Positions 4,541 through 23,968 of a stretch of DNA of 23,968 bases are shown piece after piece. Numbering within the stretch: the stretch's first letter is position 1; the number at the start of each line of letters is the position of its first letter. Below the pieces are notes generated by a model. That model was not told the origin of the DNA and did not search any database. It was given only the letters and a program-made list of their open reading frames with translations. Made by a program: the position numbers and the translations under genes. Origin of the DNA: a virus; the IMG/VR virus record IMGVR_UViG_3300022591_000069, positions 1 through 23,968 of that record; one strand, 5' to 3'.

Positions 4541-4804
4541 ATGGATCAAGAACAAATCAAACTCATAAGTGAAACACGCATTTTACAAAAGGTCAATCGA
4601 ATGCATCGTGAGGCCTTCGGCGACAAGTATCCCGGACAAGTCGAACACTGTTTGCGCCTGATCATGGAACGCCTGCAGGCCGGTCTAGACAAGCGTGATG
4701 GTGTTGATCCTGGCCGTCCTGAAACCTGGCGCATGAGCACACTGGAAATACATGACCTGGCAGACGCTGCACATCGACTAAACGAAATCCGTCGAGGTTT
4801 CTAA
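4541..4804 (+). CDS. Small helical protein, candidate terminase small subunit
   Basis: The 87-residue protein is almost entirely helical by composition (MDQEQIKLISETRILQKVNR, then VEHCLRLIMERLQAGLDKRD and LEIHDLADAAHRLNEIRRGF). It lies directly upstream of the large terminase, and its stop overlaps the terminase ATG (TAATG at 4802-4806). That is the classical place and size for a small terminase subunit or packaging regulator. No sequence signature confirms it, and the gene at 485 competes for the role. The ATG at 4541 has no typical ribosome binding site beyond a G-rich stretch near 4522-4528, so coupling to the upstream gene is likely. Confidence 0.65.
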   Translation: MDQEQIKLISETRILQKVNRMHREAFGDKYPGQVEHCLRLIMERLQAGLDKRDGVDPGRPETWRMSTLEIHDLADAAHRLNEIRRGF

Positions 4805-6441: not shown

Positions 6442-6443
6442 TC

Positions 6444-6451
6444 GCTAAATA
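6444..6451 (+). promoter_or_regulatory. T4-type late promoter box (GCTAAATA)
   Basis: GCTAAATA shares the TAAATA core of the T4 late box and lies in the 36-base gap between terminase and portal. A leader with CTGGAAAC (6464-6471) precedes the portal ATG. The same box and leader recur ahead of the gene at 8826, which argues against chance. Confidence 0.55.
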
Positions 6452-6477
6452 ACTAATAACCAACTGGAAACAAAAAC

Positions 6478-8796
6478 ATGTTAGATTTAAGAAATGTAGT
6501 GATATCAAACCTAAACGGTCATTCGGGCATGATGGCTCGATTTGTAAAAATGAAATCACTTCTTGACCAAAAATGTGCTGCAAATTTGCGTTTGTTGGCA
6601 ACCAAGAATAACATTAACAGGATTAGCGATTATCACTACTTAAATCTGGCCGTCACCGATTCAACAGATCCTGTTAACGGTCTTGACTATATTCATCCCG
6701 TGGTAAAACCAGTTGTGGATTATGCCACCAGCGTGATTACCAAGGGCATAGCGCAAAATGGCGAGATCAATTTTGAATTCATTGCCGACAACGAAGCGGA
6801 TGAAGCAGCAGCAAGACAAGCCACCGAGATGGTGCACAAGCTGATCAATCAAAATAACGATCCACATTTTATTTTACAACACTGGGTCATGGATGCTTGT
6901 TTGCACAAAAATGGCGAAATGTTGATTGCGCCCATGCGTGAACAAATTGTGCGTTATGTCACAACACAAGGCACCGAAGACCAATTGGCTGCTTTTGAAC
7001 AACAGGCTCGCGAAGCTGGACTCACAGCAAGACGCACCAGTCGACGCAAAAAGCATGTGGACATGCAGCAAGTATTAAAAGAAACTGCTCAACTTCAACA
7101 GGGCCTGGACCAGGCTCAACACGAAGAAATTGTACAAACGCACATCAACAATTTTCGACATATTGCAGAAACGGCCGAAGAAGATGCAGGCACAGTAGTT
7201 CCTGGTTTGCAATTGCCCGAAAGTGCCGAAGTGCGCGATATACCCGGACACATACAGGACAGTATTCGACGCAACACCATATACGAAGCCGAATACAAAT
7301 TGACCGGCTACAATCTCAATATCAAGTTTAGACCGATTGCACAACACTATTGGATGTGTGATCCCACTGTTATTGAAATACAAGAACAACCTTTCTGTGG
7401 TTTTTACAAGCCCATGAGCATACAAGAAGCCACAGAATTATATCCCGACATTGATCTAGAGGAGTTTAAAGTCTATGCCGAATATTCCAATGTGGGTTCA
7501 TATCAAGCTGGATCACTGCTTAACAATTTGGCTCTGCATGCTCGTGATAGTGTGCCAATTAATGGCCTTCCTGCACAAGGATACTCAGCGCAAGAGCCTG
7601 AAGCAAGACAAGTTACTGTGCTTACTGTTTGGAATCGTTACGATATTGATAATGATGGAGAGTTGGAACTTGTTGAACTTATCTACAGTGGCCAATATGT
7701 TATCAGTGCCCGTGAAGTAGAATTTATTCCAGTGGCCAACATGGTTCCAAAACCCTTGGCACAAAACTTTTACGGTATGGCCATTGCCGAAAGTGTGGTG
7801 CCCATGCAAGAATACATGACATCAGGTTATCGTGCTGAATTACTCACAGGCTTGTTGCAATCAACACCAAGAATTGGTGTCAAACCTGATCGAGTAGACT
7901 TTGAAGAAATACAAGATGGCGAAGCAGCAATCTTTATCTTGGACAGCAAGTTCAATCCAGCAACCGACATTTATGCAATGCCTATTCCACAAGGCAATCC
8001 CACATTCTTGGACAACACCATGGCTCGTATGCAACAAGACAGCATGGCCATGGTGGGCATGACCTCGCCACAAGATGTGTTCAATCCCGAAGTTATGGAT
8101 CCCGGCAACTCAGGAGCCAAACTAAATCTAGCACTCAGCCCCAATCAGATCATTCAAGACAACACTGTGAAGAATTGTGCCGAAGGTTTGAAAGATGCCA
8201 TTTGGTTGATCTGGAGAACCTTGGTTGCATTTGGTGATGACTACGGTGTAAAAAAATTAGCACAACAATATCACCCAGAAGGCAAAGCCGAATTCATTGA
8301 TTATAAAAGTTTTGATGACATGAATTTTAACGAGCGCAAAACCATACATATTGATCTTGCCCTGGGCATGAAGAGTGAAGAAAACAGTTTGCAACGCAGT
8401 CAGATTATCAAACAAGCACAAAATGGCCTTGCACAAGAAATTGCCGCATTGTCACAAAGCGGTGCTTTGACTCCAGCTGGATTCAAGAAGATTCGCAAAC
8501 CTTACGAAGACATGTTGTATACTCTGGGTGTAAAAGATGCCGATACTTATTTGCCCACCGAACAAGAAGCCACCGAAATTATCAAACAAAGCCAACAGGC
8601 TGCACAACAAAAAATGCAACAACAAATGCAAATGGCACAAGCGGTTCAACAAGTTGATATGGCCCACAAGCAAAGTGAAACTGCTCTCAATGCTGCCAAA
8701 ACTCAAGAAGTTCAGGCCAACACACAAGGTACCAGTGCAAAAATGCAATTGGATGGTGTCAGTTTGATTGGCGAGCATAAGGCTCGTGCATTCTAA
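6478..8796 (+). CDS. Portal protein, P22/SU10-type
   Basis: The 772-residue protein would form the dodecameric ring through which DNA enters the head and to which the tail attaches. Support comes from its place after terminase and before scaffold and capsid, its length (P22-like portals are about 700-770 residues), and the segment NRYDIDNDGELELVELIYSG (about 386-405). That segment, with IPVANMVPKPLAQNFYGMAI after it, is typical of podovirus portals of this class. D389, D391 and D393 give an EF-hand-like acidic loop. Residues about 160-230 are a charged helical insertion, and about 700-760 form a glutamine-rich coiled coil, corresponding to the helical barrel or crown at the C-terminus. The ribosome binding site is GGAAA, eight bases upstream. 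Confidence 0.9.
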   Translation: MLDLRNVVISNLNGHSGMMARFVKMKSLLDQKCAANLRLLATKNNINRISDYHYLNLAVTDSTDPVNGLDYIHPVVKPVVDYATSVITKGIAQNGEINFEFIADNEADEAAARQATEMVHKLINQNNDPHFILQHWVMDACLHKNGEMLIAPMREQIVRYVTTQGTEDQLAAFEQQAREAGLTARRTSRRKKHVDMQQVLKETAQLQQGLDQAQHEEIVQTHINNFRHIAETAEEDAGTVVPGLQLPESAEVRDIPGHIQDSIRRNTIYEAEYKLTGYNLNIKFRPIAQHYWMCDPTVIEIQEQPFCGFYKPMSIQEATELYPDIDLEEFKVYAEYSNVGSYQAGSLLNNLALHARDSVPINGLPAQGYSAQEPEARQVTVLTVWNRYDIDNDGELELVELIYSGQYVISAREVEFIPVANMVPKPLAQNFYGMAIAESVVPMQEYMTSGYRAELLTGLLQSTPRIGVKPDRVDFEEIQDGEAAIFILDSKFNPATDIYAMPIPQGNPTFLDNTMARMQQDSMAMVGMTSPQDVFNPEVMDPGNSGAKLNLALSPNQIIQDNTVKNCAEGLKDAIWLIWRTLVAFGDDYGVKKLAQQYHPEGKAEFIDYKSFDDMNFNERKTIHIDLALGMKSEENSLQRSQIIKQAQNGLAQEIAALSQSGALTPAGFKKIRKPYEDMLYTLGVKDADTYLPTEQEATEIIKQSQQAAQQKMQQQMQMAQAVQQVDMAHKQSETALNAAKTQEVQANTQGTSAKMQLDGVSLIGEHKARAF

Positions 8797-10401: not shown

Positions 10402-11796
10402 ATGTCAACAGGTTATAATAGCACAACAGCTATCGGCAATGGAACTGGACTATACCAAACCGATATCGTTGTTAAAGATCTAGATTTAGATGTTAGTAAC
10501 AGAGTTAAAGATGATACACCAGTTTTAAACATGTGTATGGCCAAAAAGCGTAAAGTGGTTAGCACTTTACCATTGTGGACAAACGATGTATATCGTTTAC
10601 CACAAACTCAAGCACAACAAGAAGGTGCAGCAGTAAGTTCAGCAGCAGTTGAACAACAAAGCCGTGCTAACTTGGGCAATTACACACAGATTTTCTCTAC
10701 TGTAGTTGGAGCAACTGGAACAGCTCGTGCAGTTGAGCAATCAGGTGGAGATCCACAAGCATATCAAGAAGTCAAGCAATTGATTGAATTGATGTTTGAT
10801 GTGGAAGCACAAATTGTTCGTGCAGACCAAATCGGAACAAAGTATTCAGGACAAAGTGGTATTGCATCTGGTGTAGGTATTCCTGCCACAGTGTTTACAT
10901 ATCCCACAGCTGATGCTAATCCAAACAACACATTTGCCAATGTGGCATTACCAAATGCTACTTCAAGTGGTGGAACAGTTACTGGTGCCAATGGCGTTAG
11001 TGCTTACGGTGTTGGATCTACAGTTTATTCACTAGCACTAGGTCGTAGAATGGGTTCATTGAACGCATTTGCCGGAACACACAGCTTTAACCCAGCTACA
11101 GGTTCTACATATTACACAGTGTTCAACAATGAAAGTAGCGATGCTACAACTCAAGGTACTGCCAATGTATGGACAGTTGGTGGATCACTAGTATCTACCA
11201 CATTGACCAACACAGGTGAAGGCCTAGGTTCTAGCTTCTATAGTTACACAGGCACATTGCAACAATTTGCACCTAGCTTGTACAAGCAATTGGTTACAAC
11301 TGCTGAGCAGCGTTTCAATGCAAAAATCCGCACAATCGTTTGCCCAACAAGTTTAAGAACACACCTAAGTGATACAATGCCTACAAGCCGTAGTATCAAC
11401 CGTGTAAACAGCGAGCGTGGTGACACAATTGCCACATACGAAGGTGACTTCAACTACACTTACGAAATCTTTGATTCATGGATCATGGATCAAGTGGGTT
11501 CAGGTAACCAAATTTATTTCTTGAACGAAGAAGTGTTACAATGGGGTTCATTGCGTGACCTAGGACCAAACAACGAAGTATTCTCAAATGCTGACGCTAG
11601 TTTGGACCAGTTCATTCTTGAAGGAACACTAATTGTTCGTAACCCATCTGGTGTGGCTGCATTGCACGACATCTCTGCACGCGGTCAGTCAGTAAGTTTT
11701 GGTTCAGGCAATGGCGGCGCTTCAACAATTATTGGTGGCACTCGTGCTGCAAGTAATGTTGTAAGACTCAACGCTTGGGACAACAACTCTTTTTAA
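10402..11796 (+). CDS. Major capsid protein, DUF5309/SU10 type
   Basis: The 464-residue protein resembles the HK97-fold capsid family of SU10-like podoviruses (DUF5309). Early features are a DDTPVLNMCMAKKRKV segment (about 37-52), then TLPLWTNDVYRLPQ and EGAAVSSAAVEQQSRANL, where the family has its bxxEGA..R.N pattern. Next come TGTARAVEQSGG and a helical QEVKQLIELMFDVEAQIVRA (spine-helix region). The end of the protein, GTLIVRNPSGVAALHDISA, fits the family's C-terminal strand. A glycine/threonine-rich stretch (about 180-270) may be a surface insertion. The strong ribosome binding site AAGGAG (10389-10394) suits a very highly expressed gene. The unit ends at a strong terminator 42 bases later. 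Confidence 0.88.
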   Translation: MSTGYNSTTAIGNGTGLYQTDIVVKDLDLDVSNRVKDDTPVLNMCMAKKRKVVSTLPLWTNDVYRLPQTQAQQEGAAVSSAAVEQQSRANLGNYTQIFSTVVGATGTARAVEQSGGDPQAYQEVKQLIELMFDVEAQIVRADQIGTKYSGQSGIASGVGIPATVFTYPTADANPNNTFANVALPNATSSGGTVTGANGVSAYGVGSTVYSLALGRRMGSLNAFAGTHSFNPATGSTYYTVFNNESSDATTQGTANVWTVGGSLVSTTLTNTGEGLGSSFYSYTGTLQQFAPSLYKQLVTTAEQRFNAKIRTIVCPTSLRTHLSDTMPTSRSINRVNSERGDTIATYEGDFNYTYEIFDSWIMDQVGSGNQIYFLNEEVLQWGSLRDLGPNNEVFSNADASLDQFILEGTLIVRNPSGVAALHDISARGQSVSFGSGNGGASTIIGGTRAASNVVRLNAWDNNSF

Positions 11797-11838: not shown

Positions 11839-11870
11839 AAAAGGAGTGCTAGAAATAGTGCTCCTTTTTT
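11838..11870 (+). terminator. Strong terminator after the capsid gene
   Basis: A 14-base arm (11838-11851) pairs fully, with two G-T wobbles, with 11856-11869 around a GAAA tetraloop. The 3' side ends in six T. Because the A tract at the start pairs with the T tract, it could also stop transcription from the other strand. It ends the capsid unit. Confidence 0.85.
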
Positions 11871-11884
11871 ATTGGAGATTAGAA

Positions 11885-12409
11885 TTGGATGAATTAGAAA
11901 TATTTGAAAAATTATCGACGGCAAAGAAAAAATATACACAACAACAATATGCAGCCAAACAAAGAAATATTGAATGGTTATATACTTTTGAAACTTGGTG
12001 GAAACAATGGCAAGAGTCTGGTAAATGGGAACAAAGAGGTAATAAACGAAATCAATATTGTATGGGAAGAAAAGGTGACATTGGTCCATATAGTCCAGAT
12101 AATGTAGACATTATACTTGCTACAAAAAATTCAACTGATGCTAAACTAGGCAAAGTGGGATGGAATAAAGGTCAATCATTGTCAGAAGAACACAAAGAAA
12201 AATTACGACAGGCTAAAATAGGACACAAACAAAGTGATGAGACAAGACTTAAAAAAAGTTTAGCCAACCAAGGCAAAGGTTGGAGTGAAGCAAGACGAGC
12301 CGCACACCGCGGTGCATGGAACAAGGGACTAACAAAAGAAACTGATGCAAGGATAGCCGAACAAGCAGCAAATTATCCTGAAACAAGAAAAAGTAAATTA
12401 ACAATTTGA
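11885..12409 (+). CDS. Homing-endonuclease-like protein with NUMOD3-type repeats
   Basis: From TTG at 11885 the protein has 174 residues. The N-terminal part carries FETWWKQWQESGKWEQRGNK and YCMGRKGDIGPYSPDNVDII, a W..SG.W..RG...QYCM.R..D.GPY...NV pattern that I associate with phage free-standing endonucleases. The C-terminal part has repeated NUMOD3-like DNA-binding units (GWNKGQSLSEEHKEKLRQAK, then GHKQSDETRLKKSLANQGKG, then AWNKGLTKE). No complete HNH or GIY-YIG catalytic set is visible, so activity is uncertain. The TTG is preferred because GGAG (11874-11877) lies seven bases upstream; an in-frame GTG at 11846 would start inside the terminator. The gene is more A-rich than its neighbours and is flanked by two hairpins, as expected for an inserted mobile gene. 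Confidence 0.75.
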   Translation: MDELEIFEKLSTAKKKYTQQQYAAKQRNIEWLYTFETWWKQWQESGKWEQRGNKRNQYCMGRKGDIGPYSPDNVDIILATKNSTDAKLGKVGWNKGQSLSEEHKEKLRQAKIGHKQSDETRLKKSLANQGKGWSEARRAAHRGAWNKGLTKETDARIAEQAANYPETRKSKLTI

Positions 12410-12434: not shown

Positions 12435-13064
12435 ATGAGTGCTAAATACTATATGAATACTAATGACGAATTTTCAAATTACCAAGACAAGAGCTATCTA
12501 GATAGCAGTGAAGAACCCACTTTCAATGCCGACAGTTTTCGTCAGGACACAGGTGGATTAGTAACAAAAGATAATGGAATAGCCGATCGCTTGTTGCAAA
12601 ACGACCGATTATACAACACCCTAAAAGGTGATTGGAAGCGTGAAGGATGGAATGGAAGTCGAAATGTCAAAATTACTACCGGACGAGAAGGTGGTAAATT
12701 TTTCATTAATCGAGAACAATTTAATCTTCCGCAAATTGCCGAACATTGTGCCGAATATCGCAAGCGAGCAGAAGCGGGATATATAGATCCACTAGCACCC
12801 ATTATGCCGGATGGCAAACTGGGATACAAATGGATGGAACTGCCTGATGTTATTGCAATTGATATCAGCAATGACTACTTTGGTGGCATGCCCTGGGCCG
12901 CATTGAAAAATGATCGCACATTGAAAGCACAATTTTACCGAGTTGTAGAACGAGAATACAATGCTTTTGTTTGCTATCCCGGAGGCAAATTACCAATACC
13001 CATTGAAGTTCCATATCCCAACCGAGTGGGTAGCGAGAAATTTTTTAAAGGCCATACAGCATGA
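12435..13064 (+). CDS. Conserved phage structural-module protein, unknown
   Basis: Read from 12435 the protein has 209 residues. Its N-terminal 60 residues are polar and may be disordered. The body includes GREGGKFFINREQFNLPQIA (about 83-102) and MELPDVIAIDISNDYFGGMP (about 132-151). The C-terminus has AFVCYPGGKLPIPIEVPYPN. It lies directly upstream of the adaptor, overlapping it by ATGA (13061-13064), so it probably takes part in head completion or neck assembly. No family is recognised. Neither the ATG at 12435, which follows a hairpin arm, nor the in-frame ATG at 12453 has a ribosome binding site. The box at 12441-12448 favours 12453, which would give 203 residues. Confidence 0.75.
   Translation: MSAKYYMNTNDEFSNYQDKSYLDSSEEPTFNADSFRQDTGGLVTKDNGIADRLLQNDRLYNTLKGDWKREGWNGSRNVKITTGREGGKFFINREQFNLPQIAEHCAEYRKRAEAGYIDPLAPIMPDGKLGYKWMELPDVIAIDISNDYFGGMPWAALKNDRTLKAQFYRVVEREYNAFVCYPGGKLPIPIEVPYPNRVGSEKFFKGHTA
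12441..12448 (+). promoter_or_regulatory. T4-type late promoter box inside a predicted N-terminus (GCTAAATA)
   Basis: GCTAAATA, the same octamer as at 6444 and 8799, follows a terminator and would head the adaptor and tail unit. It overlaps codons 3-5 of the frame that starts at 12435. If used, transcripts would start near 12454, almost on the in-frame ATG at 12453. Confidence 0.45.
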
Positions 13065-13801
13065 GCAATTTATTACCAGTCAGCACCGGAGATGATCTAG
13101 TTCAATTCGTGCAACAATTTACCGGTAGCAGCGACAACAACGAAATTCAGCAATGTGTATACTTGACTGAATTAATGATGCGTAATATCGAATTACCAGC
13201 ATTGAGAACCAATCCCTGGGTCACGATTGGCACAGCAAACAGTTATGGACAAGTGCCAATTCCGGCAGACATGAATCGTCCCATATTGTTTTTTAATCAA
13301 GGTTCAGGCGGCACTGGACCCAATCCCAATGGAGCTGGACCTTGGATTGTTTATGATCGTATTGGTGATCGAGACATTATTACACAAACGCTGAATCAGA
13401 ATTTATTTCTAGCACCTTACAATACACCACAAGTGTATCGTGGTAAATTTAGCGAAGTTGGACAATACTACGAATTTATTCCAATATTGTCAGCTGGTGC
13501 CCAAATCAACATGTATTATTACACCACTTGGCCTTTGTTGTTTACCACAGACAGCAACAACAATCAAGTTCAAACCAATCAGGTGTTGAGTTCGTGGCCA
13601 GAAGGTTATGTATACGGAACACTGCATAACTATTATTATAAAAGAAAAATGATGGAAGATGCCGACAAGTGGTTGGCCAAATACAATCTTGCTTATGATA
13701 CTGTAGAAGATCAAAACAACAAAGGCAAATGGAGTGGTGGACATAATAAATTATCAAGTGTATTCCAGCCACGCAAAGATAGACGATTCGGAACACGATA
13801 A
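13061..13801 (+). CDS. Head-tail adaptor protein, SU10/gp4-like
   Basis: The 246-residue protein has the layout of podovirus adaptors that dock on the portal ring. An N-terminal helical part has DDLVQFVQQFTGSSDNNEIQ (about 10-29) and YLTELMMRNIELPAL. A beta-rich insertion follows, then the diagnostic C-terminal segment VLSSWPEGYVYGTLHNYYYK (about 175-194), with MMEDADKWLAKYNLAYD after it. A P-E-xxYxYGxL...D...W...Y pattern is characteristic of this adaptor class. Its start overlaps the preceding stop by four bases. The insertion with GQYYEFIPILSAGAQINMYY is beta-rich and resembles the corresponding part of relatives. The gene appears intact. Confidence 0.75.
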   Translation: MSNLLPVSTGDDLVQFVQQFTGSSDNNEIQQCVYLTELMMRNIELPALRTNPWVTIGTANSYGQVPIPADMNRPILFFNQGSGGTGPNPNGAGPWIVYDRIGDRDIITQTLNQNLFLAPYNTPQVYRGKFSEVGQYYEFIPILSAGAQINMYYYTTWPLLFTTDSNNNQVQTNQVLSSWPEGYVYGTLHNYYYKRKMMEDADKWLAKYNLAYDTVEDQNNKGKWSGGHNKLSSVFQPRKDRRFGTR

Positions 13802-13816
13802 TTAAAGGACAACAAG

Positions 13817-16800
13817 ATGGCGAATGTATCAGTAGGTAGCACTACAGGTTTATACGGAGTAAGCACTACAAATTCAATTTTGACAAGTGCACAAAATTTA
13901 TACACATTGCTGGGTAATAGTGCCAGTGTTGGCTTTTATCTGACCAACAGCAATTTAACTGTAGATGCCACCACATTGCCCACCGGTGTTGCTTCAGGCA
14001 CATACGGTGATAGCGGTGATATTCCGGTGGTCACTGTTGGCGCAGATGGTCGTGTGACCAACATCACCACTGTGGCTGTTACAGCACCTGCTTCCAGTTA
14101 CGGTAACAGCAATGTTGCTGCTTATTTGTCCAGCAATACCGATCCCACAATACAAAGTTTAAATGCCAACACAAAACAACAACAAGGCCAAATCAATTCG
14201 GTAACGGCCAATCTGACTGCATTTGAAACCTATGCCAATGCCACCTTTGGCACCAGCAGTTATGGCAACGCCAATGTGGCAGCATACCTGCCCACTTATT
14301 CTGGTAGTTTAAACAATAGTTCAAGTATTATTTCAATTAATAGTAATGTAACTGCTGCCAATGCCGCTATTGCTACATTACAAGCCAATGTTGGTAGTTT
14401 TTACACTTATGCAAATGCTACCTATCAAACTAGTGCTAGTGCATATAGTAATGTAAATACTGCCGCTTATTTGGCAGGCAGTATAAGTGTTGGAAATATA
14501 AAATCTACAAATGGTTTCTTTTGGGCCAATGGAGTTGCGTATTCAACCGGTGGTGGAACCACCAGCACTTACAGCAATGCCAACGCACAGTCATATCTCA
14601 GCACCACCAGTGTTCTAAATATTGGTAATGCAGCACCCGGTGGCGGCCAAGTTATAATTGGACATCCAACTACAAACAATTCGGTAATACTACAGTCTGG
14701 ACCAATACCGGTAACATTCATTGTGGGTTCAGTTGGTGGTAATTTAAGTTTATCATCAAGCAATGGTTTGCAAATCAACAATACCGATTTGTCATTCTCG
14801 GGCGTGTCTGGCCAAGGTGGCAATATCAACATGAACAATGCCAGTGGCCGAGGTTATATCAATAGCGCCGCTGGTGTTACGGCACAAACTTACACTTCTA
14901 CAAATGGTTACTTCTGGGCCAACGGCACAGCTTACAGCACACAACCCACATATGGTAATACGCAAGTAAGTGCTTACTTATCTAGCGGCACAATTACACA
15001 AATTGTGGGCGGCAATACTTTGTTTATTCAACCCACCAGTGGAATAATGCAATTGACAGGAGCACCAGTTCAATTGGTGGGAACCGGACCAGGCAATGCC
15101 ACAGTTATCACAGGCGGCAATATTGTTCTTGCCGGCGTGAACGGCAGCGGTAGCGGCAGTGTGCCGGCCAATGTATGGATTATTGGTTCCACAACGCAAA
15201 CCGGAAATATAACAACCAGTGCTGGTATGTATACCACAAATGGTTACTTCTGGGCCAATGGCACAGCCTATAGCACTGCATCAGGTGCCAGCACACCGGC
15301 ATTTTCAGGTAACTTGGCCGGCAATGTTTTATATGATGGCATAAATGGTTTTGTAACTGCCAATGCTTATCCGTTCTCGGCACCAGATACCAGTGTTGGC
15401 AGCAGTTATTGGAATTTATATTATCAAAATCCCAAGCCGGTATATAGTGGTGGTGTTTTGCAACCACCATCACCCAGCGGATTAAATGGTATTCTTGTAA
15501 ACAGTCAGCATGTGGCCAACATTGCCATGGCCCATGCTTCATCAACACAAACTGTTATTGGCAACAGTAATTATATTCAAGTTTGGCCCGGTAATAGTGG
15601 CACCAACATGACCAACAATGATCGTGTGCGAGCCCTGAATGGCATTGCCGAAGTGAATCTACAGGGCGGAACCTGGGGAACCATGAGCAGTAGCAGTCAG
15701 TCTACAGCACTGATTGCGGGCATGAATGGTTTTGCCAGCATCACCGGAACAGGACAATTGGCCAGCACAGTGGGACAATTTGCCGGAGCACAAGTGGTTC
15801 CCAAAGGTGGTAGTGCCAATGTGCAATATGCCACTGCTGTTTTGGGCTCGGTGACTTTTGCTGCCAATGCAGTCAACAACTACACCACAAGCAATATTGG
15901 TTATGCTCGATTGTTTGCCGGCACAATTGGTCCCACAGGAAATCTAGTGATGACCAATGCCGTGGGCTTACACACCGTGAGTGGATGGGCCGGATCTGGC
16001 AGTGTAGTAACCAATCAGCGATATGTGTTATTGAACGAAGATGCCGCTACAATTTTACAAACCAATGGTAACATTGTGTTTGCTTCAGGATCGGCAAAAG
16101 GTATTGTGTTCCAGGACGGCAGTTATCAAACCACTGCTGCCACCAGCGGAACCACATACAGCAATGCCAATGTGGCCAGCTATCTACCAACTTCGAGTGT
16201 GAATTTTGGCGGCAATATTTTGACCGTGACCGGTAATGCAACAATTACCGCACAAAGCAATGTGGTCAACATGAGCATCAACACTGGCGGATTGGGATTA
16301 CCAATTGGTGGCAACAGTTCAAGACCCACAACAGCAACTCCGGGAACAATTCGTTTCAACAGTGATAGAAGCAATCCTGAATGGTATGATGCCACAGATA
16401 ATTTGTGGAAATTGTTTAGTCAAACTTATACTCCAACCCCGGCAACTTATTCGGCACAGTATCTAGCAGTTGGTGGCGGTGGCGGCGGTGGCTCCGATTA
16501 TGATACAGCACCAGCCGGTGGCGGTGGCGGAGCAGGTGGATTCTTGACCAGCAGCACCACGGTGACCGTGGGAACAACTTACACCATCACAGTTGGTGCC
16601 GGTGGAACTGGTGGAACCTCAGGAGCCAATCCCACAAATGGAACCGATTCTACTATCACTGCATTCAGTGTTACAGCACTTGGTGGTGGTGCTGGTGGTG
16701 GTAGCAGTGGTTCAATATATTCTGCTGCGTCGGGTGGATCTGGAGGCGGTGGCGGAAGCAATGGCTCAGGCGCCGGTGGTTCAGGTGGTTCAGGCACAAC

Positions 16801-17329
16801 TGGTCAAGGTAATGCTGGTGGTAACTTACTCAATAACGGTATTGTATATGGTGGCGGCGGCGGAGGAGCCGGTGGCTCAGGCGGTGCACCAAATAATATT
16901 GGACCAAGCTATGCAAGTAATGGTGGAGTTGGTGGAGTTGGATTATCTAGTTCAATAACAGGTTCTTCAGTTTATTATGCCGGTGGAGGTGGAGGCACTG
17001 GCGGATGGCCAGGAAACAATTATGGTGCTGGCGGCGCTGGCGGCCTTGGTGGCGGCGGAACCGGAACAAGTTTTACCAATAACGGTGGCGGCAATGCCGG
17101 ATTCGTTGCTGGAACTGCTGGAACTGCCAATACTGGTGGCGGAGGCGGAGGCGGTGGATATAAAGGCGGTGGAGAATCCAGTGATGGTTTAGCAGGTGGA
17201 AGTGGCGTTGTCATACTTTCTGTTCCAACTGCAAATTATTCAGGAACCACAACTGGATCACCAACAATAACCACAAGTGGATCAAACACTATAATTACTT
17301 TCACTTCAAGTGGAAGTTATACAGCTTAA
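13817..17329 (+). CDS. Large tail fibre with repeats and glycine-rich tip
   Basis: The 1170-residue protein has a repetitive beta-type shaft. Six copies of a YxNxxVxAYL-like unit lie at about residues 95, 149, 210, 251, 378 and 781. A TNGYFWANGTAYST unit recurs at about 231, 362 and 473. A central Ser/Thr/Gly/Asn-rich domain (about 500-780) follows, then the linker RFNSDRSNPEWYDATDNLWK (about 846-865). From 885 to about 1130 comes a glycine-rich tip with many GGGG and GGxGG runs, of the kind that forms polyglycine-II adhesin tips, and a final beta stretch ends the protein. AAAGGA is the ribosome binding site. This is a host-attachment fibre; the tip probably contacts the receptor and can diverge quickly. 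Confidence 0.85.
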   Translation: MANVSVGSTTGLYGVSTTNSILTSAQNLYTLLGNSASVGFYLTNSNLTVDATTLPTGVASGTYGDSGDIPVVTVGADGRVTNITTVAVTAPASSYGNSNVAAYLSSNTDPTIQSLNANTKQQQGQINSVTANLTAFETYANATFGTSSYGNANVAAYLPTYSGSLNNSSSIISINSNVTAANAAIATLQANVGSFYTYANATYQTSASAYSNVNTAAYLAGSISVGNIKSTNGFFWANGVAYSTGGGTTSTYSNANAQSYLSTTSVLNIGNAAPGGGQVIIGHPTTNNSVILQSGPIPVTFIVGSVGGNLSLSSSNGLQINNTDLSFSGVSGQGGNINMNNASGRGYINSAAGVTAQTYTSTNGYFWANGTAYSTQPTYGNTQVSAYLSSGTITQIVGGNTLFIQPTSGIMQLTGAPVQLVGTGPGNATVITGGNIVLAGVNGSGSGSVPANVWIIGSTTQTGNITTSAGMYTTNGYFWANGTAYSTASGASTPAFSGNLAGNVLYDGINGFVTANAYPFSAPDTSVGSSYWNLYYQNPKPVYSGGVLQPPSPSGLNGILVNSQHVANIAMAHASSTQTVIGNSNYIQVWPGNSGTNMTNNDRVRALNGIAEVNLQGGTWGTMSSSSQSTALIAGMNGFASITGTGQLASTVGQFAGAQVVPKGGSANVQYATAVLGSVTFAANAVNNYTTSNIGYARLFAGTIGPTGNLVMTNAVGLHTVSGWAGSGSVVTNQRYVLLNEDAATILQTNGNIVFASGSAKGIVFQDGSYQTTAATSGTTYSNANVASYLPTSSVNFGGNILTVTGNATITAQSNVVNMSINTGGLGLPIGGNSSRPTTATPGTIRFNSDRSNPEWYDATDNLWKLFSQTYTPTPATYSAQYLAVGGGGGGGSDYDTAPAGGGGGAGGFLTSSTTVTVGTTYTITVGAGGTGGTSGANPTNGTDSTITAFSVTALGGGAGGGSSGSIYSAASGGSGGGGGSNGSGAGGSGGSGTTGQGNAGGNLLNNGIVYGGGGGGAGGSGGAPNNIGPSYASNGGVGGVGLSSSITGSSVYYAGGGGGTGGWPGNNYGAGGAGGLGGGGTGTSFTNNGGGNAGFVAGTAGTANTGGGGGGGGYKGGGESSDGLAGGSGVVILSVPTANYSGTTTGSPTITTSGSNTIITFTSSGSYTA
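14504..15274 (+). repeat. Dispersed fibre-shaft repeat (TNGYFWANGTAYST units)
   Basis: Three copies of an STNGxFWANGxAYST-type unit start at 14504, 14897 and 15233, spaced 131 and 112 residues. They alternate with YxNxxVxAYL units. Similar DNA at the copies (for example GGTTACTTCTGGGCCAA at the second and third) suggests shaft growth by segment duplication. Confidence 0.6.
16469..17208 (+). repeat. Glycine-rich GGxGG coding repeat (fibre tip)
   Basis: A long run of GGN codons encodes glycine blocks separated by short polar or aromatic segments. The DNA is GC-richer than its surroundings, and the frames behind it are open as a side effect. It starts at V885 of the fibre and ends near residue 1130. 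Confidence 0.8.
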
Positions 17330-17653: not shown

Positions 17654-19321
17654 ATGGCAGTCACCGCAGTTAGAACGCCGTTTACAAACATGAGTTTTAC
17701 TCCTGATGTGCCCAGTAGTGCATTGAGCGCTACCGAATACAATGCCGGATACAATGTTGAAACCGATGTTCGTTCAATAAAATCAGTAGCGGGCGATGAA
17801 TACATTTTAAGCCAAATACCCGGAAACATAATATTTGTTACTGGTGGCTTTTTAAAAACTACCAATTGGTATTTTATTTGTGCAACCATACAAGGGCAAT
17901 GGTACTTGATTGATGATGTGGGTTATAGTAATATAACTCCGCCAGTGGGTACATTTACTGGATATAATACCAGCACAGTTATAACAGCAACTTGGAATGG
18001 AAATGTTGTGTTTTTCAATGACATGATTAATCCTCCAATGTTTTTTGTTTATGGACAACCCTATTTGTACTTGTATGATTTAACTGCAAACATAGGTGGT
18101 CCAGGTGCCAATGGCAGTTACATATGGAATTATGATGTAACGGTGCCAACAAGTGGTCCGCAATCGGGCAATATTATACCCTTGTATAGCAGTTTGACTA
18201 CTGGATTTGTTAGAGACTATAACAGTCCCAATGTTGGTAGTTTGTTGGTAGCTGGCAATTTGTCAGGAGAAATTGCTGCCAATGTAACTGCTTATGCTCC
18301 GGGAACAATATTGAATTTACCGACCACAATTCGTTGGAGCCAAAACTTTGGTATAAATTCAGGTCCTGAAAATTGGACACCAACCTTGACCAATGTGGCC
18401 AACCAATTGGAAATCAATGTGCGCGGACCTGCCATTGATGGATATACTTTGAATGGTAATTTTTATATTCACAGTTATTGGGATTGTGTGTTGATGGCAC
18501 CTATTGGTTATACTTCGACAACAGCTCCGGTGTTTGCATTTACCAAAGTCACCGACGGAAGGGGCCTGATAAATGAAAACTGTTTTGCAGTGGTTGACAG
18601 CACCGCCTACGGTGTTGATGCTAGAGATATTTGGAGTTTTAATGGCAGTGCCTTTACTCCTATTGGTGATCAGCGTGTTAAGAATTATTTTTACAACAAT
18701 CTAAATCCCAATTATACCAATCAAATTTTTATGGTACACAATAGCAAAAAGTACCAAGTGGAAATTTATTATCCTGATCTAAACTCAACTGGCCAATGTA
18801 ATCAAATGTTGAGTTATAGATATGATCTACAAATTTGGAATCCACCAAGACAGGTCAGCCGGGCAACAATGGCATGTGAAAGTCCGTTCTGGACCGGCAA
18901 TGTTGCCAATTTGGCCAATAGAACCATTGTTTACAGCAACTATACTGGTAATATTGCTCTAGTGCAAAAAGATGTAGGTACAAGTTTTTTAGGCAACACT
19001 GCAATCAGCAGTTTGTTTCAAAGAAACAACATCAGTTTTGGCCAAGATTATTCGGCCAGTATTCAAGTGCATCGTGTGTATCCTGAAATTTATGGAACAG
19101 GTAATATCAATGTTGCTGTTGGCGGCGCCGACAGTGTGGCCAACACTGCTGTTTATCAAACCACAGTGACCATGCCAATTACAACTGGTAACCCCTGGGT
19201 ACAAATTTCACAAAATGAAGCTCGTATCACCAGTGTGCAATTCAGCGGCAATAGCAATGTCAATGCATGGCAGTTGACAGCTGCCAATTGGCAAATCACC
19301 AAGGTACAGGATACCAGATAA
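17654..19321 (+). CDS. Tail nozzle / tail tube distal protein
   Basis: The 555-residue protein is beta-rich throughout, as expected for the propeller-type nozzle of short-tailed phages (T7 gp12-like, P22 gp10-like). The N-terminus has TPDVPSSALSATEYNAGYNV and VRSIKSVAGDEYIL, a segment common in this class. The centre has VDSTAYGVDARDIWSFNGSA (about 314-333), then IGDQRVKNYFYNNLNPNYTN and KKYQVEIYYPDL. That DxWxFxGxxFxxIGxQRVxxYF series is typical of nozzle propellers. A CNQMLSYRYDLQIWNPPRQV segment closes the blade pattern. AAGGA supports the ATG. The stop overlaps the next gene's ATG (TAATG), which supports joint production with the tail-tip protein. Alternative: another propeller-type tail protein. 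Confidence 0.78.
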   Translation: MAVTAVRTPFTNMSFTPDVPSSALSATEYNAGYNVETDVRSIKSVAGDEYILSQIPGNIIFVTGGFLKTTNWYFICATIQGQWYLIDDVGYSNITPPVGTFTGYNTSTVITATWNGNVVFFNDMINPPMFFVYGQPYLYLYDLTANIGGPGANGSYIWNYDVTVPTSGPQSGNIIPLYSSLTTGFVRDYNSPNVGSLLVAGNLSGEIAANVTAYAPGTILNLPTTIRWSQNFGINSGPENWTPTLTNVANQLEINVRGPAIDGYTLNGNFYIHSYWDCVLMAPIGYTSTTAPVFAFTKVTDGRGLINENCFAVVDSTAYGVDARDIWSFNGSAFTPIGDQRVKNYFYNNLNPNYTNQIFMVHNSKKYQVEIYYPDLNSTGQCNQMLSYRYDLQIWNPPRQVSRATMACESPFWTGNVANLANRTIVYSNYTGNIALVQKDVGTSFLGNTAISSLFQRNNISFGQDYSASIQVHRVYPEIYGTGNINVAVGGADSVANTAVYQTTVTMPITTGNPWVQISQNEARITSVQFSGNSNVNAWQLTAANWQITKVQDTR

Positions 19322-21588
19322 TGTCAACAAATTTTGCTTTAACAACAGCAAGTCCCAATGTCAACATAATTCAATCATTGAATTATTTGTTGGCCACACA
19401 GGCCAATTCGGCCGCTACAACTGGAAATATAAATTATAATGGTAATGTTTTGATTGCCAATACCACTACAGGTGTTATTAGCGGTGTAACCAATACCGGC
19501 GCCACTCAAGTGGGTGTAATTAGTTATTTGTATGGTTATGTAGAAGTTGCGTATGCCAACACTGCCACTGGTGGTGGTTTCACTAGTAATTGCACCAATC
19601 AACTTTATTATGGTGTGCACAATACAAATAGCCCTGCATTAGATACCAATCCGGTAGATTACCAATGGACTCAAGTTGCCGGTGGCGGATTTGGAAACAC
19701 CAAATATTTGTATTATACCACAGGTGGTGGAAATACTATTAATTTTGCAGTGGGCAATACTGCACCCAATAGCACTTATAGTGCAGTCATAGATAACACA
19801 CCAATATTGTTGGCCACTGTGTCAAATACTTTAGTCAGCACAGGTGCCATTCAACCACAGGCAGCAACACAAGCAGTGTTTAACTCTGCTTCTGGACAAG
19901 TTACAAAACTTAATTATGTTAATGGCAATAGTAATCCATCAAGTAGTACATATTTGTGGCCTTACAACACACGAGGATTTGCCATTGGTGGCGGTACCTC
20001 AATCATACCTACAGAAAATGGCAGTGCAAATGCAGCCACTGGATCAAGCCAAATTCAAATTACTTACAACACTTATATCAACACACAAGGCAATGCCACG
20101 GTCACCGCAAGCAATTTAATTGAATTATGGAAAGGCGGGTCAAGCACATTTTATGATAATGTTTATAGAGCTGCCAGTGGTCAAATCAATGTAACCATAG
20201 ATCCATACTTGGTTTACTTTGGTGGATTAAATGGCACAGCAGCCAATGTCAATACCACTTCAACAACATATAACAATCTAGTGACTGGTCTAAGCAATGA
20301 CATTTATTGCAGTCAAACCACAAATTTTTATATCAGTAATGGAGTAGATGGATACGATCATTTTAGTGTGGTAGATTTTTTTGGAAAACAAAATTCCACT
20401 GCTTATCAACAAAGTTACAATATTACCGAATCAGGTAGTGTATTGCCAGGAACTTTTGGATTCAATCAAACAATTTGGAATCCAAGAAGTTATCTAACTA
20501 CAGGTAATGCTAGTGCTACTTTTGACATTTATGGTGCTGCTGGCGTGGTGCAACCCAATCCTAATGCTCTTAGCAATGCATATTATCCTATTGCCAATCC
20601 TTTATTGAGTGCACCAGGATTATTGGTTGGTAGTTCAGGAACCATTATGCGTAATAGCACTTATGTTCCACTTGTTGGCACAACAGGATGGAGTTATCCA
20701 CAAACTGATGCTGGCACAATAGAATACATTGGACAATTTCCAAATCTTTACAGTGTTGCAGCAGATAATTATGGATTTGTTCCTGCCACTGTTAATAGTG
20801 GTGGTTATACTTCGACGCCCAGTAGTTATGTAAATTATGTCACAGTTGGCACCAGTGGCACAATTTTGGTTAATACTAGAAATTATTATGCCAATGGTAA
20901 TACTTTTCAAACCAGTGGATGGACACAGCCAGTTTCTGGCACCATTAATGCCCTGTACAGTGTTGCTTGTATGCATTCCAGCACATATGGCCCTGTTTGG
21001 GTAGCTGTTGGTCAAGCCGGAGTTATACTTCGTAGTGCAGGATCGTTTAACAATTGGCAATTTGTAACTTCGCCAACAAAAAACAATTTAAATGCCATTG
21101 GAGTTTATGCTTATACTAGTACTTTGGTATTTGTAGCAGTGGGCGATAACAATACTATTTTAACCAGCACCGATGGCGGTAACACTTGGATTGTGGAATC
21201 CAGTCCAGCAACCGGTAGAAATTTATACAGTGTTACTGTAATTGGGTCTGATTCAAATTTTTATGTGGGCGGCGAAGAAGTTATTTTACAAGGATCTGGA
21301 ACAGCAGGTGCAACAACTTGGACTATAGTTTATGAAGGTTCTCCAAGTTATACCACTGCATTATCAAGATTGCAATATGCTGGTTCTTGGGCCAATGTTT
21401 CACAAACTACAACACCTCCAGCATATCAACAAATTGCAAATGCACAAGTTATTAGCGGCAGTTATACCGACTACAATTATGCAGCCGGCAGTGTGCAAAC
21501 CTATTATCTAGTAGCCGGAAATATGTCAGGAAACGCCAATGTTTATGTGGGCGGAGCAAACATGACAATAACGGAGATAAAACGCTAA
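19321..21588 (+). CDS. Tail fibre / receptor-binding protein with Asp-box propeller
   Basis: From ATG 19321 (TAATG overlap) the protein has 755 residues. A start at 19267 would overlap the nozzle gene by 55 bases without a ribosome binding site, so it was not chosen. The N-terminal third has VDYQWTQVAGGGFGNTKYLY and a following INFAVGNTAP segment, a pattern seen in tail-tip and host-specificity proteins. The middle part (about 200-420) is S/T/N-rich beta sequence. The C-terminal part has repeated AVG..G.I..S motifs: LLVGSSGTIMRN, VTVGTSGTILVN, VAVGQAGVILRS and VAVGDNNTILTS. One complete Asp-box, STDGGNTW (616-623), follows. This indicates a BNR/Ycf48-like beta-propeller. No catalytic sialidase residues are identifiable, so binding rather than cleavage is inferred. 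Confidence 0.75.
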   Translation: MSTNFALTTASPNVNIIQSLNYLLATQANSAATTGNINYNGNVLIANTTTGVISGVTNTGATQVGVISYLYGYVEVAYANTATGGGFTSNCTNQLYYGVHNTNSPALDTNPVDYQWTQVAGGGFGNTKYLYYTTGGGNTINFAVGNTAPNSTYSAVIDNTPILLATVSNTLVSTGAIQPQAATQAVFNSASGQVTKLNYVNGNSNPSSSTYLWPYNTRGFAIGGGTSIIPTENGSANAATGSSQIQITYNTYINTQGNATVTASNLIELWKGGSSTFYDNVYRAASGQINVTIDPYLVYFGGLNGTAANVNTTSTTYNNLVTGLSNDIYCSQTTNFYISNGVDGYDHFSVVDFFGKQNSTAYQQSYNITESGSVLPGTFGFNQTIWNPRSYLTTGNASATFDIYGAAGVVQPNPNALSNAYYPIANPLLSAPGLLVGSSGTIMRNSTYVPLVGTTGWSYPQTDAGTIEYIGQFPNLYSVAADNYGFVPATVNSGGYTSTPSSYVNYVTVGTSGTILVNTRNYYANGNTFQTSGWTQPVSGTINALYSVACMHSSTYGPVWVAVGQAGVILRSAGSFNNWQFVTSPTKNNLNAIGVYAYTSTLVFVAVGDNNTILTSTDGGNTWIVESSPATGRNLYSVTVIGSDSNFYVGGEEVILQGSGTAGATTWTIVYEGSPSYTTALSRLQYAGSWANVSQTTTPPAYQQIANAQVISGSYTDYNYAAGSVQTYYLVAGNMSGNANVYVGGANMTITEIKR

Positions 21589-21590
21589 TG

Positions 21591-21598
21591 CTTAAATA
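21591..21598 (+). promoter_or_regulatory. T4-type late promoter box (CTTAAATA)
   Basis: CTTAAATA has the TAAATA core and starts three bases after the stop of the fibre gene. AGAGAG (21605-21610) follows as a ribosome binding site for the ATG at 21617. It is the weakest match of the set but in the expected place. Confidence 0.4.
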
Positions 21599-21616
21599 CA
21601 CTAAAGAGAGAATAAT

Positions 21617-23968
21617 ATGAGTGGTGGATTTTTTAAAGACCCGTTTCAGTCAATTGAAGGCACATTAAACAGTCTTGGTCATGACATTAGTAATGGCTGG
21701 AACAGTTTAAATCATGCAGTAGGCGGTAATCTTGGATTGATTACAGGTGCTGCCTTGATTGCTGCCGGTATCTATGATCCTGAATTATTGGGCCTGGCCA
21801 ATACCGGTGAATTGACTGCTTCAAGTCTTACCGGTAGTGCAGTTACAGATAGTCAATTGTCCACTTTGGGCGCTACTGCTACTCAAACAAGTGCTGCCAA
21901 TGTTGCCGCTGTTCAAGCAGCTGCTGCCAGTGGTGCAGTTTCTGTGCCAACTGCTGTTGCCGCTGGCGCAACCACAACAGGTATTGCAAGTACTGCTGCC
22001 GCAACAGGCGCACTAAATGCCAGTCTAGTGGGTAATTTATTATCAGCTGGTGCCAGCGTGGGCAGTTTGTTGGGCGTGGGTACTCCCGTTACTGCATTGT
22101 TGACAGCCGGTGCCAGTTATGAAAGCATGGTTGCTGGTGGACTAACTGCTGCCAATATGTTGGGCATGGGTGCCAGTGTTGCTGAATTATTGGGTGCACG
22201 AGCACCCATCATTGATTTATTAAGTGGCGGCGCCAGTGTTGACAGTTTGGTAGCCGGTGGATTGACCACAACACAAATTATCGGTGCCAGTTTAGGGGCT
22301 GGTGCAAGTGCAGCCAATTTATTAGGCGCTCCAAAAAATGTACAACAATTGTTGGCTTTGGGCGCTAGTGCAAGTAGTTTGTACAATGCTGGTGTTAATA
22401 TTAACACTATCATGAGTCAAACTCCCAGCAGTCAAGTGCCAGCAACAGTTCGAGATTTAAGCACAAACAGCAATGTCAGTACCGGAGAATTGGTACAAGC
22501 CGGGGCAACACCTGAACAAGTGGTACAAGCACTTGGTGCCAATCAAGTGGGTGCATTGTTAACCGAAGCCAATCCAACACAAGTTGTTAATGAATTGTTA
22601 AATTCTGGTACTAGCGTACAAACATTATTAGATCAAGGAGCTACTCCACAACAGTTATTAAATGCTGGACAAACTCCACAAGATTTAATGTCAGCAGGAG
22701 TAAGTACACAAAATTTACTAAATGCCGGAGTCGCTCCACAAACATTAATGCAATCAGGAGTCAGTGCTGGAGATTTGTACCAAGCCGGAGTCGGCATTAA
22801 TGATTTGACTCAATTGGGTGCAACCACTCAAGAATTATACAAAGCTGGGGCAACGCCACAAGAATTAATTACTCAAGCCGGAGCAACACCACAAGAATTG
22901 GTACAAGCTGGGGCAACGCCACAAGAATTATTAAATGCGGGTACTACTCCACAACAGTTATTGAGCAGTGGTGTCAGTGCCAGCGAATTGGCGCGATCTG
23001 GAGTAAGTGGTGAGCAATTGTTTAATGCCGGTGCAAGTCTAAATGACATTAACAATGCCGGTATCAGTACCAATCAATTGTTAATCAATGGTGTTAGTAC
23101 CGATTCATTGTTGAATGCCGGTGCAAATGTAAATGATTTGATTGATGCCGGTGCAAAACCTACAGATTTAATCAATGCCGGAGTTGATCCACAACAATTA
23201 TTAAATTCAGGCGTCAATGCCGAACAGTTATTGCAAGCAGGAACATCGCCAGGTCAATTACTAAGTGATGGAGTTGACACCAAAACATTGTTAAATGATG
23301 GAGTTAATGCTGCAACTTTATACCAAGCAGGAGCAAGTACACAAAATTTAATCAATGCTGGCGCCGCCCCTGAACAATTATTAGGTGCTGGTGCCACTCC
23401 TGAACAATTAATAAGTGCCGGTATAGATCCCAATACTGTTGCCAAAGAAATGGCAACATCAAATTTTAACGCAAATCAAATTGGTTCAGAATTGACTGCT
23501 AGTGGTGCCACACCATTAAATTCAAGTCCGGTCAATGGCGCTGCATACATGATGCCAAATGGTACATTCTTGGATGCCTATGGTAATCAATTGGCCAGCA
23601 CAAATGCACAAGGGCAAATTGTTGACACAAATGGCACAGTGTTATCACAAACTCCATTTACGCCCAATGCCGGTCCTCAAACAGTAATATCAACATCAAC
23701 ACCAACAACAACTACCGCGCCTACCGCTCCGGTTGCTCCAACCGAGCCAACAACTATCGCAACTGCTGCGCCTACCGCGCCTACCGCTCCGGTGGCACCT
23801 GTTGTTCCTGAAACAGATCCGGCTACTACGGTTACAAATACACAAGTTACTCCATATGGTACATATACCACTTATGCCGACGGAACAACTTATTTGCAAA
23901 ACCAATATGGTATTACTAATTTAGAAACATTGCAAAAAGTAAATGCATTGCCGGCACCGGCAACATCG
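21617..23968 (+). CDS. Large decapeptide-repeat virion protein, 3' end beyond window
   Basis: The frame is open from ATG 21617 to the window end: 784 residues seen, no stop. Residues 1-60 hold SGGFFKDPFQSIEGTLNSLG and a hydrophobic segment GLITGAALIAAGIY (about 40-53). About 60-142 are Ala/Thr/Ser-rich. Residues 143-266 and 329-609 are arrays of ten-residue units of the form xAGxTPQxLL, about 40 in all. A short unrelated domain follows (MMPNGTFLDAYGNQLAS), then a Thr/Pro/Ala linker (about 694-735). The start resembles large internal or tail-associated proteins that follow fibre genes in uncultured phages, so an ejected internal protein or a structural spacer is possible. The repeat recalls short Leu/Ala/Gly solenoid units but I cannot name a family. 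Function unknown. Confidence 0.8.
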   Translation, partial: MSGGFFKDPFQSIEGTLNSLGHDISNGWNSLNHAVGGNLGLITGAALIAAGIYDPELLGLANTGELTASSLTGSAVTDSQLSTLGATATQTSAANVAAVQAAAASGAVSVPTAVAAGATTTGIASTAAATGALNASLVGNLLSAGASVGSLLGVGTPVTALLTAGASYESMVAGGLTAANMLGMGASVAELLGARAPIIDLLSGGASVDSLVAGGLTTTQIIGASLGAGASAANLLGAPKNVQQLLALGASASSLYNAGVNINTIMSQTPSSQVPATVRDLSTNSNVSTGELVQAGATPEQVVQALGANQVGALLTEANPTQVVNELLNSGTSVQTLLDQGATPQQLLNAGQTPQDLMSAGVSTQNLLNAGVAPQTLMQSGVSAGDLYQAGVGINDLTQLGATTQELYKAGATPQELITQAGATPQELVQAGATPQELLNAGTTPQQLLSSGVSASELARSGVSGEQLFNAGASLNDINNAGISTNQLLINGVSTDSLLNAGANVNDLIDAGAKPTDLINAGVDPQQLLNSGVNAEQLLQAGTSPGQLLSDGVDTKTLLNDGVNAATLYQAGASTQNLINAGAAPEQLLGAGATPEQLISAGIDPNTVAKEMATSNFNANQIGSELTASGATPLNSSPVNGAAYMMPNGTFLDAYGNQLASTNAQGQIVDTNGTVLSQTPFTPNAGPQTVISTSTPTTTTAPTAPVAPTEPTTIATAAPTAPTAPVAPVVPETDPATTVTNTQVTPYGTYTTYADGTTYLQNQYGITNLETLQKVNALPAPATS
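22043..22413 (+). repeat. Degenerate decapeptide repeats, first array
   Basis: About 12 units of roughly ten residues begin with SAGASVGSLL and end with NAGVNINTIM. They keep a glycine at position 3 and a hydrophobic pair at 9-10. One unit carries extra residues (GASLGAGASAANLL). They are more divergent than the second array, suggesting greater age. Confidence 0.75.
22601..23443 (+). repeat. Regular decapeptide repeats, second array (28 units)
   Basis: Twenty-eight consecutive units run from NSGTSVQTLL to SAGIDPNTVA with a 30-base period. All have ten residues except one of eleven (TQAGATPQELV, at about 22870). The consensus is N-A-G-(A/V)-(T/S)-P-Q-(E/Q)-L-(L/I). G at position 3 is invariant, and L at 9 nearly so. 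Confidence 0.9.
23713..23793 (+). repeat. Thr/Pro/Ala linker with a direct DNA repeat
   Basis: An identical stretch of 21 bases occurs at 23713-23733 and 23773-23793, exactly 60 bases apart. Both copies are in the same frame and encode TAPTAPV-type sequence. This is a proline-rich, probably extended linker in the repeat protein. Confidence 0.65.

Follow-up and report, generated by a model that had tools for sequence, protein, structure and literature searches.

The gene at the 3' end of the window, i.e., of the whole stretch of DNA analysed here (23,968 bases, IMG/VR virus record IMGVR_UViG_3300022591_000069, which ends inside this gene), encodes a protein with long arrays of decapeptide repeats. 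The phage is short-tailed and of SU10 type, and this product is probably a component of its DNA-ejection apparatus, namely a "pilot" protein carried inside the virion and ejected from it, in which a modular alpha-solenoid would serve as spacer. As a podovirus ejection-type protein it is most likely ordinary; unusual is the presence of the decapeptide of DotG on a chassis with exchangeable repeats. The decapeptide itself is already known, both as Pfam family PF25296 and from DotG/IcmE of the Legionella Dot/Icm channel; what is new is its occurrence in a phage.

Judging from its genes (Table 1), the window phage, which is from freshwater, is an SU10-type short-tailed phage. The profile of the nozzle family also matched SU10 gp17, at 4e-10. 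A tail tape-measure protein was considered for the repeat gene and rejected on account of the SU10-type portal, adaptor and nozzle and of the lack of a tail-tube gene among the window genes scanned. An open reading frame with homing-endonuclease-like motifs, recognized by eye, separates the capsid gene from the structural gene that follows it (11846-12409), and was not seen there in most relatives. The tail-fibre-like gene at 13817-17329 ends in a glycine-rich domain with GGGGG runs, which is a separate gene in the related contigs L016 (8831-9688) and L025 (8778-9626).

Table 1. Coordinates of genes, repeat arrays and other features in the window
Feature	Position	Strand	Remarks
Terminase gene	4804-6441		Pfam/PHROG scans of window genes
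Portal gene	6478-8796		PF23899 SU10_portal, 7e-45
Major capsid gene	10402-11796		PF17236 SU10_MCP, 1.6e-29
Adaptor gene	13061-13801		PF24175 SU10_adaptor
Nozzle protein gene, relative of SU10 gp17	17654..19321	+	PHROG 3287; opens syntenic block
Spike/short-fibre-like gene	19321..21588	+	Between nozzle and decapeptide-repeat genes
TAAATA(A)-box variant TTAAATAC	21592..21599	+	Possible late promoter element before decapeptide-repeat gene
Decapeptide-repeat protein gene	21617..23968	+	784 residues visible; 3' end open at contig end
Conserved N-terminal hydrophobic domain GGNLGLITGAALIAAGIYDPELLGLANTGELT	21716..21829	+	Common to tens of IMG/VR contigs
Array 1, 12 decapeptide units	22043..22414 (aa 143-266)	+	Units colinear with those of L061 array 1
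Array 2, 28 decapeptide units xAGxTPQxLL	22601..23443	+	One 11-residue slip
C-terminal part, start	23444..23968	+	Thr/Pro-rich linker, Y-x-DGTT motif resembling those in relatives; remainder beyond contig

The initial annotation of this DNA had placed a late box before the repeat gene, and this appears plausible: TAAATA occurs ten times on the + strand of the window, and six of these copies, including TTAAATAC, fall within the 738 intergenic bases, which make up 3% of the window. The intergenic TAAATA(A) boxes (+ strand positions 474, 1108, 6446, 8801, 11833 and 21593), which precede several genes, resemble late promoters of the T4 type, here in a short-tailed phage.

The description of the arrays in the initial annotation, i.e., their coordinates, the 28 units of array 2 with one 11-residue slip (residues 409-419) and about 40 units in total, was borne out, and arrays 1 and 2 together occupy about 52% of the visible residues, where about half had been given. 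The spacing of G at position 3 and L at position 9 also holds in array 2, with 28/28 and 26/28 units, respectively; in array 1 the expected G is found in 10/12 units, the other two being variants (GARAP.., GAPKN..). A chained-unit statistic for the whole window protein counted 33 units with a longest chain of 28, compared with a mean of 1.5 units, a maximum of 10 and a longest chain of 6 in 500 shuffles, and residue identity at a lag of 10 was 42% versus about 5-7% at most other lags. The units use all four Gly codons and their mean DNA identity to each other is 52%. Since the protein pattern was kept while the DNA diverged, the array is not the product of fresh slippage, and recent DNA slippage as its origin is excluded by this low identity between units. 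Invariant glycines with diverged codons and DNA are as expected for an old array, which would be held by selection on the protein.

AlphaFold2 predicted a very regular alpha-solenoid, in which every unit of the arrays consists of a helix of six residues and a loop of four, both for array 2 alone (190 amino acids; mean pLDDT 93.3, pTM 0.76) and for residues 1-640 of the window protein (mean pLDDT 80.4). The model agrees with the initial annotation, which had suggested a regular solenoid or a stack of short turns and helices. Comparisons of the solenoid with PDB and BFVD by Foldseek and VIA-align yielded no clear fold relative, an absence of matches which does not amount to a new fold: in PDB the best values were a Foldseek E of 6.9e-3 and a VIA Z of 3.5 for the array model, and a single Foldseek match at 3.6e-6 with a TM-score of 0.05-0.07 and a VIA Z of 4.8 for the 640-residue model; in BFVD the best E for the solenoid was 0.4.

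The initial annotation had regarded the repeat as undescribed, which has to be corrected. A Pfam search assigned the window protein to PF25296 (Decapeptide) with 194.9 bits and an E of 1.6e-58 over six stretches, well above the gathering cut-off of 45 bits; a complete relative, the protein of contig L061, scored 334 bits. Among PDB proteins the DotG/IcmE entries were the only strong matches (phmmer to DotG chains, E 6e-59), and NCBIfam NF033900 (DotG/IcmE) gave 195.9 bits (E 1e-57). A true DotG/IcmE homologue, i.e., a part of a type IVB secretion system taken up as an auxiliary gene for interaction with a eukaryotic host, might be read from these E values, and icmE/dotG was indeed counted among the "symbiosis genes" of coral phages by Wallace et al. 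2024, of which it formed 11% (PMC11309003). We consider this origin very improbable. The NF033900 score of 196 bits lies far below the equivalog cut-off of 750 bits, so that the repeat and not the DotG family is matched, and the DotG matches to the window protein are driven by the repeats alone. By Pfam, no VirB10/TrbI domain was present in the complete L061 protein, the C-terminus of the window protein lying beyond the contig. Instead of dot/icm neighbours, genes for phage terminase, portal, capsid, adaptor, nozzle and spike were found, and every neighbour with a match is a phage virion gene.

What DotG/IcmE and the window protein have in common is large arrays of a 10-residue repeat, in which the spacing of G and L is constant, and, if the proposed role is correct, participation in machines which move macromolecules across the Gram-negative envelope; they differ in the N-terminal domain, in the gene context and, as far as can be told from L061, in the VirB10-type C-terminal domain. 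Tandem repeats of 30 bp have been reported for icmE (PMC2639597), and in the 2021 maps of the Dot/Icm channel residues 791-824 and the C-terminus of DotG were modelled, with the decapeptide part of about 600 residues outside (PMC8486379). The calls in the coral-phage study required a BLASTp identity of 40% or more across 20 residues or more (PMC11309003), a filter likely to let decapeptide ejection proteins through; the icmE/dotG genes of that study may be decapeptide virion proteins. In the literature searched there was no published work on decapeptide ejection proteins. Among 50,697 records of isolate phages there was no relevant match to the whole protein, its N-terminus or the arrays (one match had an E of 0.3), a result that covers detectable matches only, since tblastn masks low-complexity sequence.

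A first scan of IMG/VR with the whole window protein found no relative. Relatives were gathered with the nozzle protein, the N-terminal domain (N-domain) and the 240-residue protein encoded after the repeat gene in relatives (p240) as probes, together with a degenerate repeat pattern; the latter yielded 95 stretches, mostly of unrelated repeats, and a stricter pattern matched solely the contig of L061. The three probes gave tens of related contigs, nearly all of them unassigned IMG/VR records. Among them are L085, a contig from a bacterial MAG (beta proteobacterium), and MW202484, a GenBank phage genome from a spring, which has no N-domain. The complete gene in L061 encodes 1656 amino acids with three long decapeptide stretches, about 90 units in total, and linkers between them. 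The term "giant", which had been applied to the window protein, is thus appropriate for this relative; of the window gene 784 residues are visible.

In L061 the order of genes is nozzle, spike, repeat protein, 240-residue protein and large protein. The order nozzle, spike, N-domain protein, 240-residue protein, large protein, (300-340 residue protein) and Dps-like protein recurs, whole or incomplete, in the majority of contigs covering this region. In most syntenic relatives the large protein is a transglycosylase or has a match to one: in L013 it has a Pfam SLT domain, in L019 its matches include PHROGs annotated as endolysin and as "released from the phage upon host infection", most of these relatives have homologues of it, and in L061 the match is weaker (3.2e-25). 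The block with a lytic transglycosylase follows the tail/nozzle genes in the syntenic relatives; the window ends before it, and since the C-terminus of the window protein and the downstream genes lie beyond the contig, its assignment to an ejection cassette relies on these relatives. The Dps-like gene (PHROG 3636/858) closes the block in many of these phages, at 11165-11647 in L019, and is syntenic in L016, L021, L059, L061 and L063.

The ends of the family proteins are conserved. The N-domain has the consensus IPGGWATVGAAALLAAGITDPELL across family members, and the hydrophobic N-terminal segment mentioned in the initial annotation is present in the window protein at residues 34-52 (Kyte-Doolittle value 1.68) and conserved in the family; AlphaFold2, with low to middling confidence on this segment, did not model it as a single long transmembrane helix. 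Several members have a C-terminal region in common, e.g., NPGxNPGxI...YYWG. The middle is of different types: decapeptides in the window protein, L061, L012, L028 and L052; a different repeat of about 14 residues, with GFTNAxxYxxA units, in L063, L044, L060 and L089; a Q/A-rich stretch in L013 and L120, as well as in L016, which is without N-domain; and a short middle in L051 and L059. The GFTNAxxYxxAxxA repeat replaces the decapeptides on the same N-domain (L063 3113-7336, L044 305-2296, L060 6339-7976, L089 4205-6049), and Pfam gave no match to it in the three proteins scanned (L063, L044, L060). In L012 the N-domain (5375-5668) and the decapeptides (5650-7212) are in two overlapping frames, by frameshift or by sequencing error.

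On the nozzle tree the types of middle are scattered, with 13 changes versus 12.8 for shuffled labels, and the nozzle closest to that of the window by tree path is that of L013, which has no decapeptides. The comparison of repeat numbers across related phages, as had been proposed, showed a variation from 5 to about 90 units. When the arrays of the window protein and L061 were compared, none of 1000 shuffles of unit order reached the observed score for the first 8 units of array 1, and the last 4 units had their peak at the continuing offset; for array 2, 64% of the shuffles reached the observed score. The first 12 units therefore appear fixed, whereas the second array turns over. A spacer length set by repeat number, as suggested initially, finds partial support in the variable number of units and in the turnover of array 2 next to a fixed array 1; the length is tied to no measured distance.

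So free an exchange may speak against an ejection role, in that the spacer is perhaps functionally loose. It would also suit a part with few contacts, such as an internal virion protein or a non-virion protein without a conduit across the envelope, which could organise DNA, fill the capsid from inside or act in the host cytoplasm after ejection. We regard such a protein as improbable. The composition of the window protein (no Cys, Lys+Arg 1.3%, net charge of array 2 -19) is strongly acidic and Lys/Arg-poor in the arrays, which argues against binding or condensation of DNA, and a DNA-condensing internal protein in particular is disfavoured by this charge.

The most direct evidence for an ejection protein comes from domain fusions in other phages. 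The N-domain is fused to PHROG 598 in L033 (3e-19), and decapeptides are fused to it in L166 (3.3e-24) and, with weaker scores (2.6e-4 to 8.7e-4), in L156, L182 and L183. PHROG 598 is the P22 gp7 family, P22 gp7 itself scoring 2e-95. A comparison with PF25296 covered the decapeptides of L156, L182 and L166; those of L166 scored 37.5 bits, which is under the curated cut-off. The fusion gene of L166 has on one side a gene for head closure resembling P22 gp10 and on the other a gene for an "internal virion protein with endolysin domain". A short match to a C-terminal motif of tape-measure proteins was present in L030, L085 and L191; tape-measure proteins are likewise delivered with the DNA. P22 gp7 is an ejection protein which enters the cell together with the DNA and takes part in forming a trans-periplasmic conduit (PMC8402733). 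The fusions to the gp7 family and the synteny of the cassette in relatives support an ejected internal virion protein, as had been surmised from the window.

Another possible role is that of an external tail component beside the nozzle, such as a tail needle, short fibre or adhesin, for which the solenoid would provide the stalk or spacer. The repeat gene stands directly after the spike/short-fibre-like gene, SU10 gp18 and gp19 are situated between the nozzle protein gp17 and the ejection genes, and surface-type proteins are among the decapeptide-like matches in plasmids. This location is nevertheless unlikely, since other phages have fusions of decapeptides, and of the same N-domain, to DNA-ejection domains of the P22 gp7 type, the N-domain is hydrophobic, and a Pfam scan of the complete L061 protein detected no receptor-binding, pectate-lyase or fibre domain.

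For the ejection protein which we prefer, three known systems offer comparisons. The P22 cassette of gp7, gp20 and gp16 is similar in that other phages fuse the same N-domain or decapeptides to a gp7 domain with a transglycosylase in the cassette. It differs since neither the visible window protein nor L061 matched PHROG 598 (the visible window protein has no PHROG match), L061 has a C-terminal region of its own, and p240, which was considered as a gp7 relative, was dropped because the comparison gave no demonstrable relationship. SU10 (Kuravirus) is similar in the type of virion, by its related portal, capsid, adaptor and nozzle proteins, and in the comparable position of the gene after that for the nozzle. 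Its gp20-24, whose genes come after that of the nozzle, are lost from the particle during infection and genome release and are therefore known as ejection proteins; among them gp20 is the transglycosylase, and an extension of the nozzle across the periplasm by gp20-24 has been proposed (PMC9509320). However, no similarity of gp20-24 to p240, the SLT protein or the 340-residue protein (p340) was detected, and the searches of phages returned no SU10 match for the decapeptides. The ejectosome of T7 (gp14, gp15, gp16), likened here by function alone, corresponds to the proposed role, since its ejected helical proteins refold, after passage through a narrow channel, into a periplasmic tunnel (PMC8954989).

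With these systems as a guide we infer ejection, a periplasmic location and a role in a conduit, which could proceed as follows. An exchangeable spacer would be held between the hydrophobic N-domain, which is conserved, and a C-terminal region, conserved according to the relatives; in the window phage this spacer should consist of the two alpha-solenoid arrays of 10-residue helix-loop units with a linker between them and a Thr/Pro-rich stretch after them. The protein would be packaged in the head, and its units, having only local contacts, could leave through the narrow portal/nozzle channel in an unfolded or extended state and regain their fold singly once in the periplasm; these steps are modelled on the T7 ejection proteins because of their refolding after a narrow channel. 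The N-domain might engage a membrane, the Cys-free, Lys/Arg-poor, acidic solenoid could bridge or sleeve the path of the DNA and perhaps span the periplasm, and the transglycosylase encoded downstream would open the peptidoglycan. It may be suggested, with considerable doubt, that phage ejection machines and the Dot/Icm channel both use a decapeptide alpha-solenoid as a trans-periplasmic spacer, and that unit number and type of repeat can be swapped on a fixed chassis, the reach of the conduit being tuned by copy number.

For the annotation of viral metagenomes, icmE/dotG calls can be phage virion proteins and not host-interaction genes. A repeat of the DotG type on phage DNA-ejection proteins would link two envelope-crossing machines, and the phage family could provide a simple modular system for the study of decapeptide repeats. 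Since the ends are kept and the middle is swapped between unlike repeats, the requirements of an ejected spacer should be testable with natural variants.
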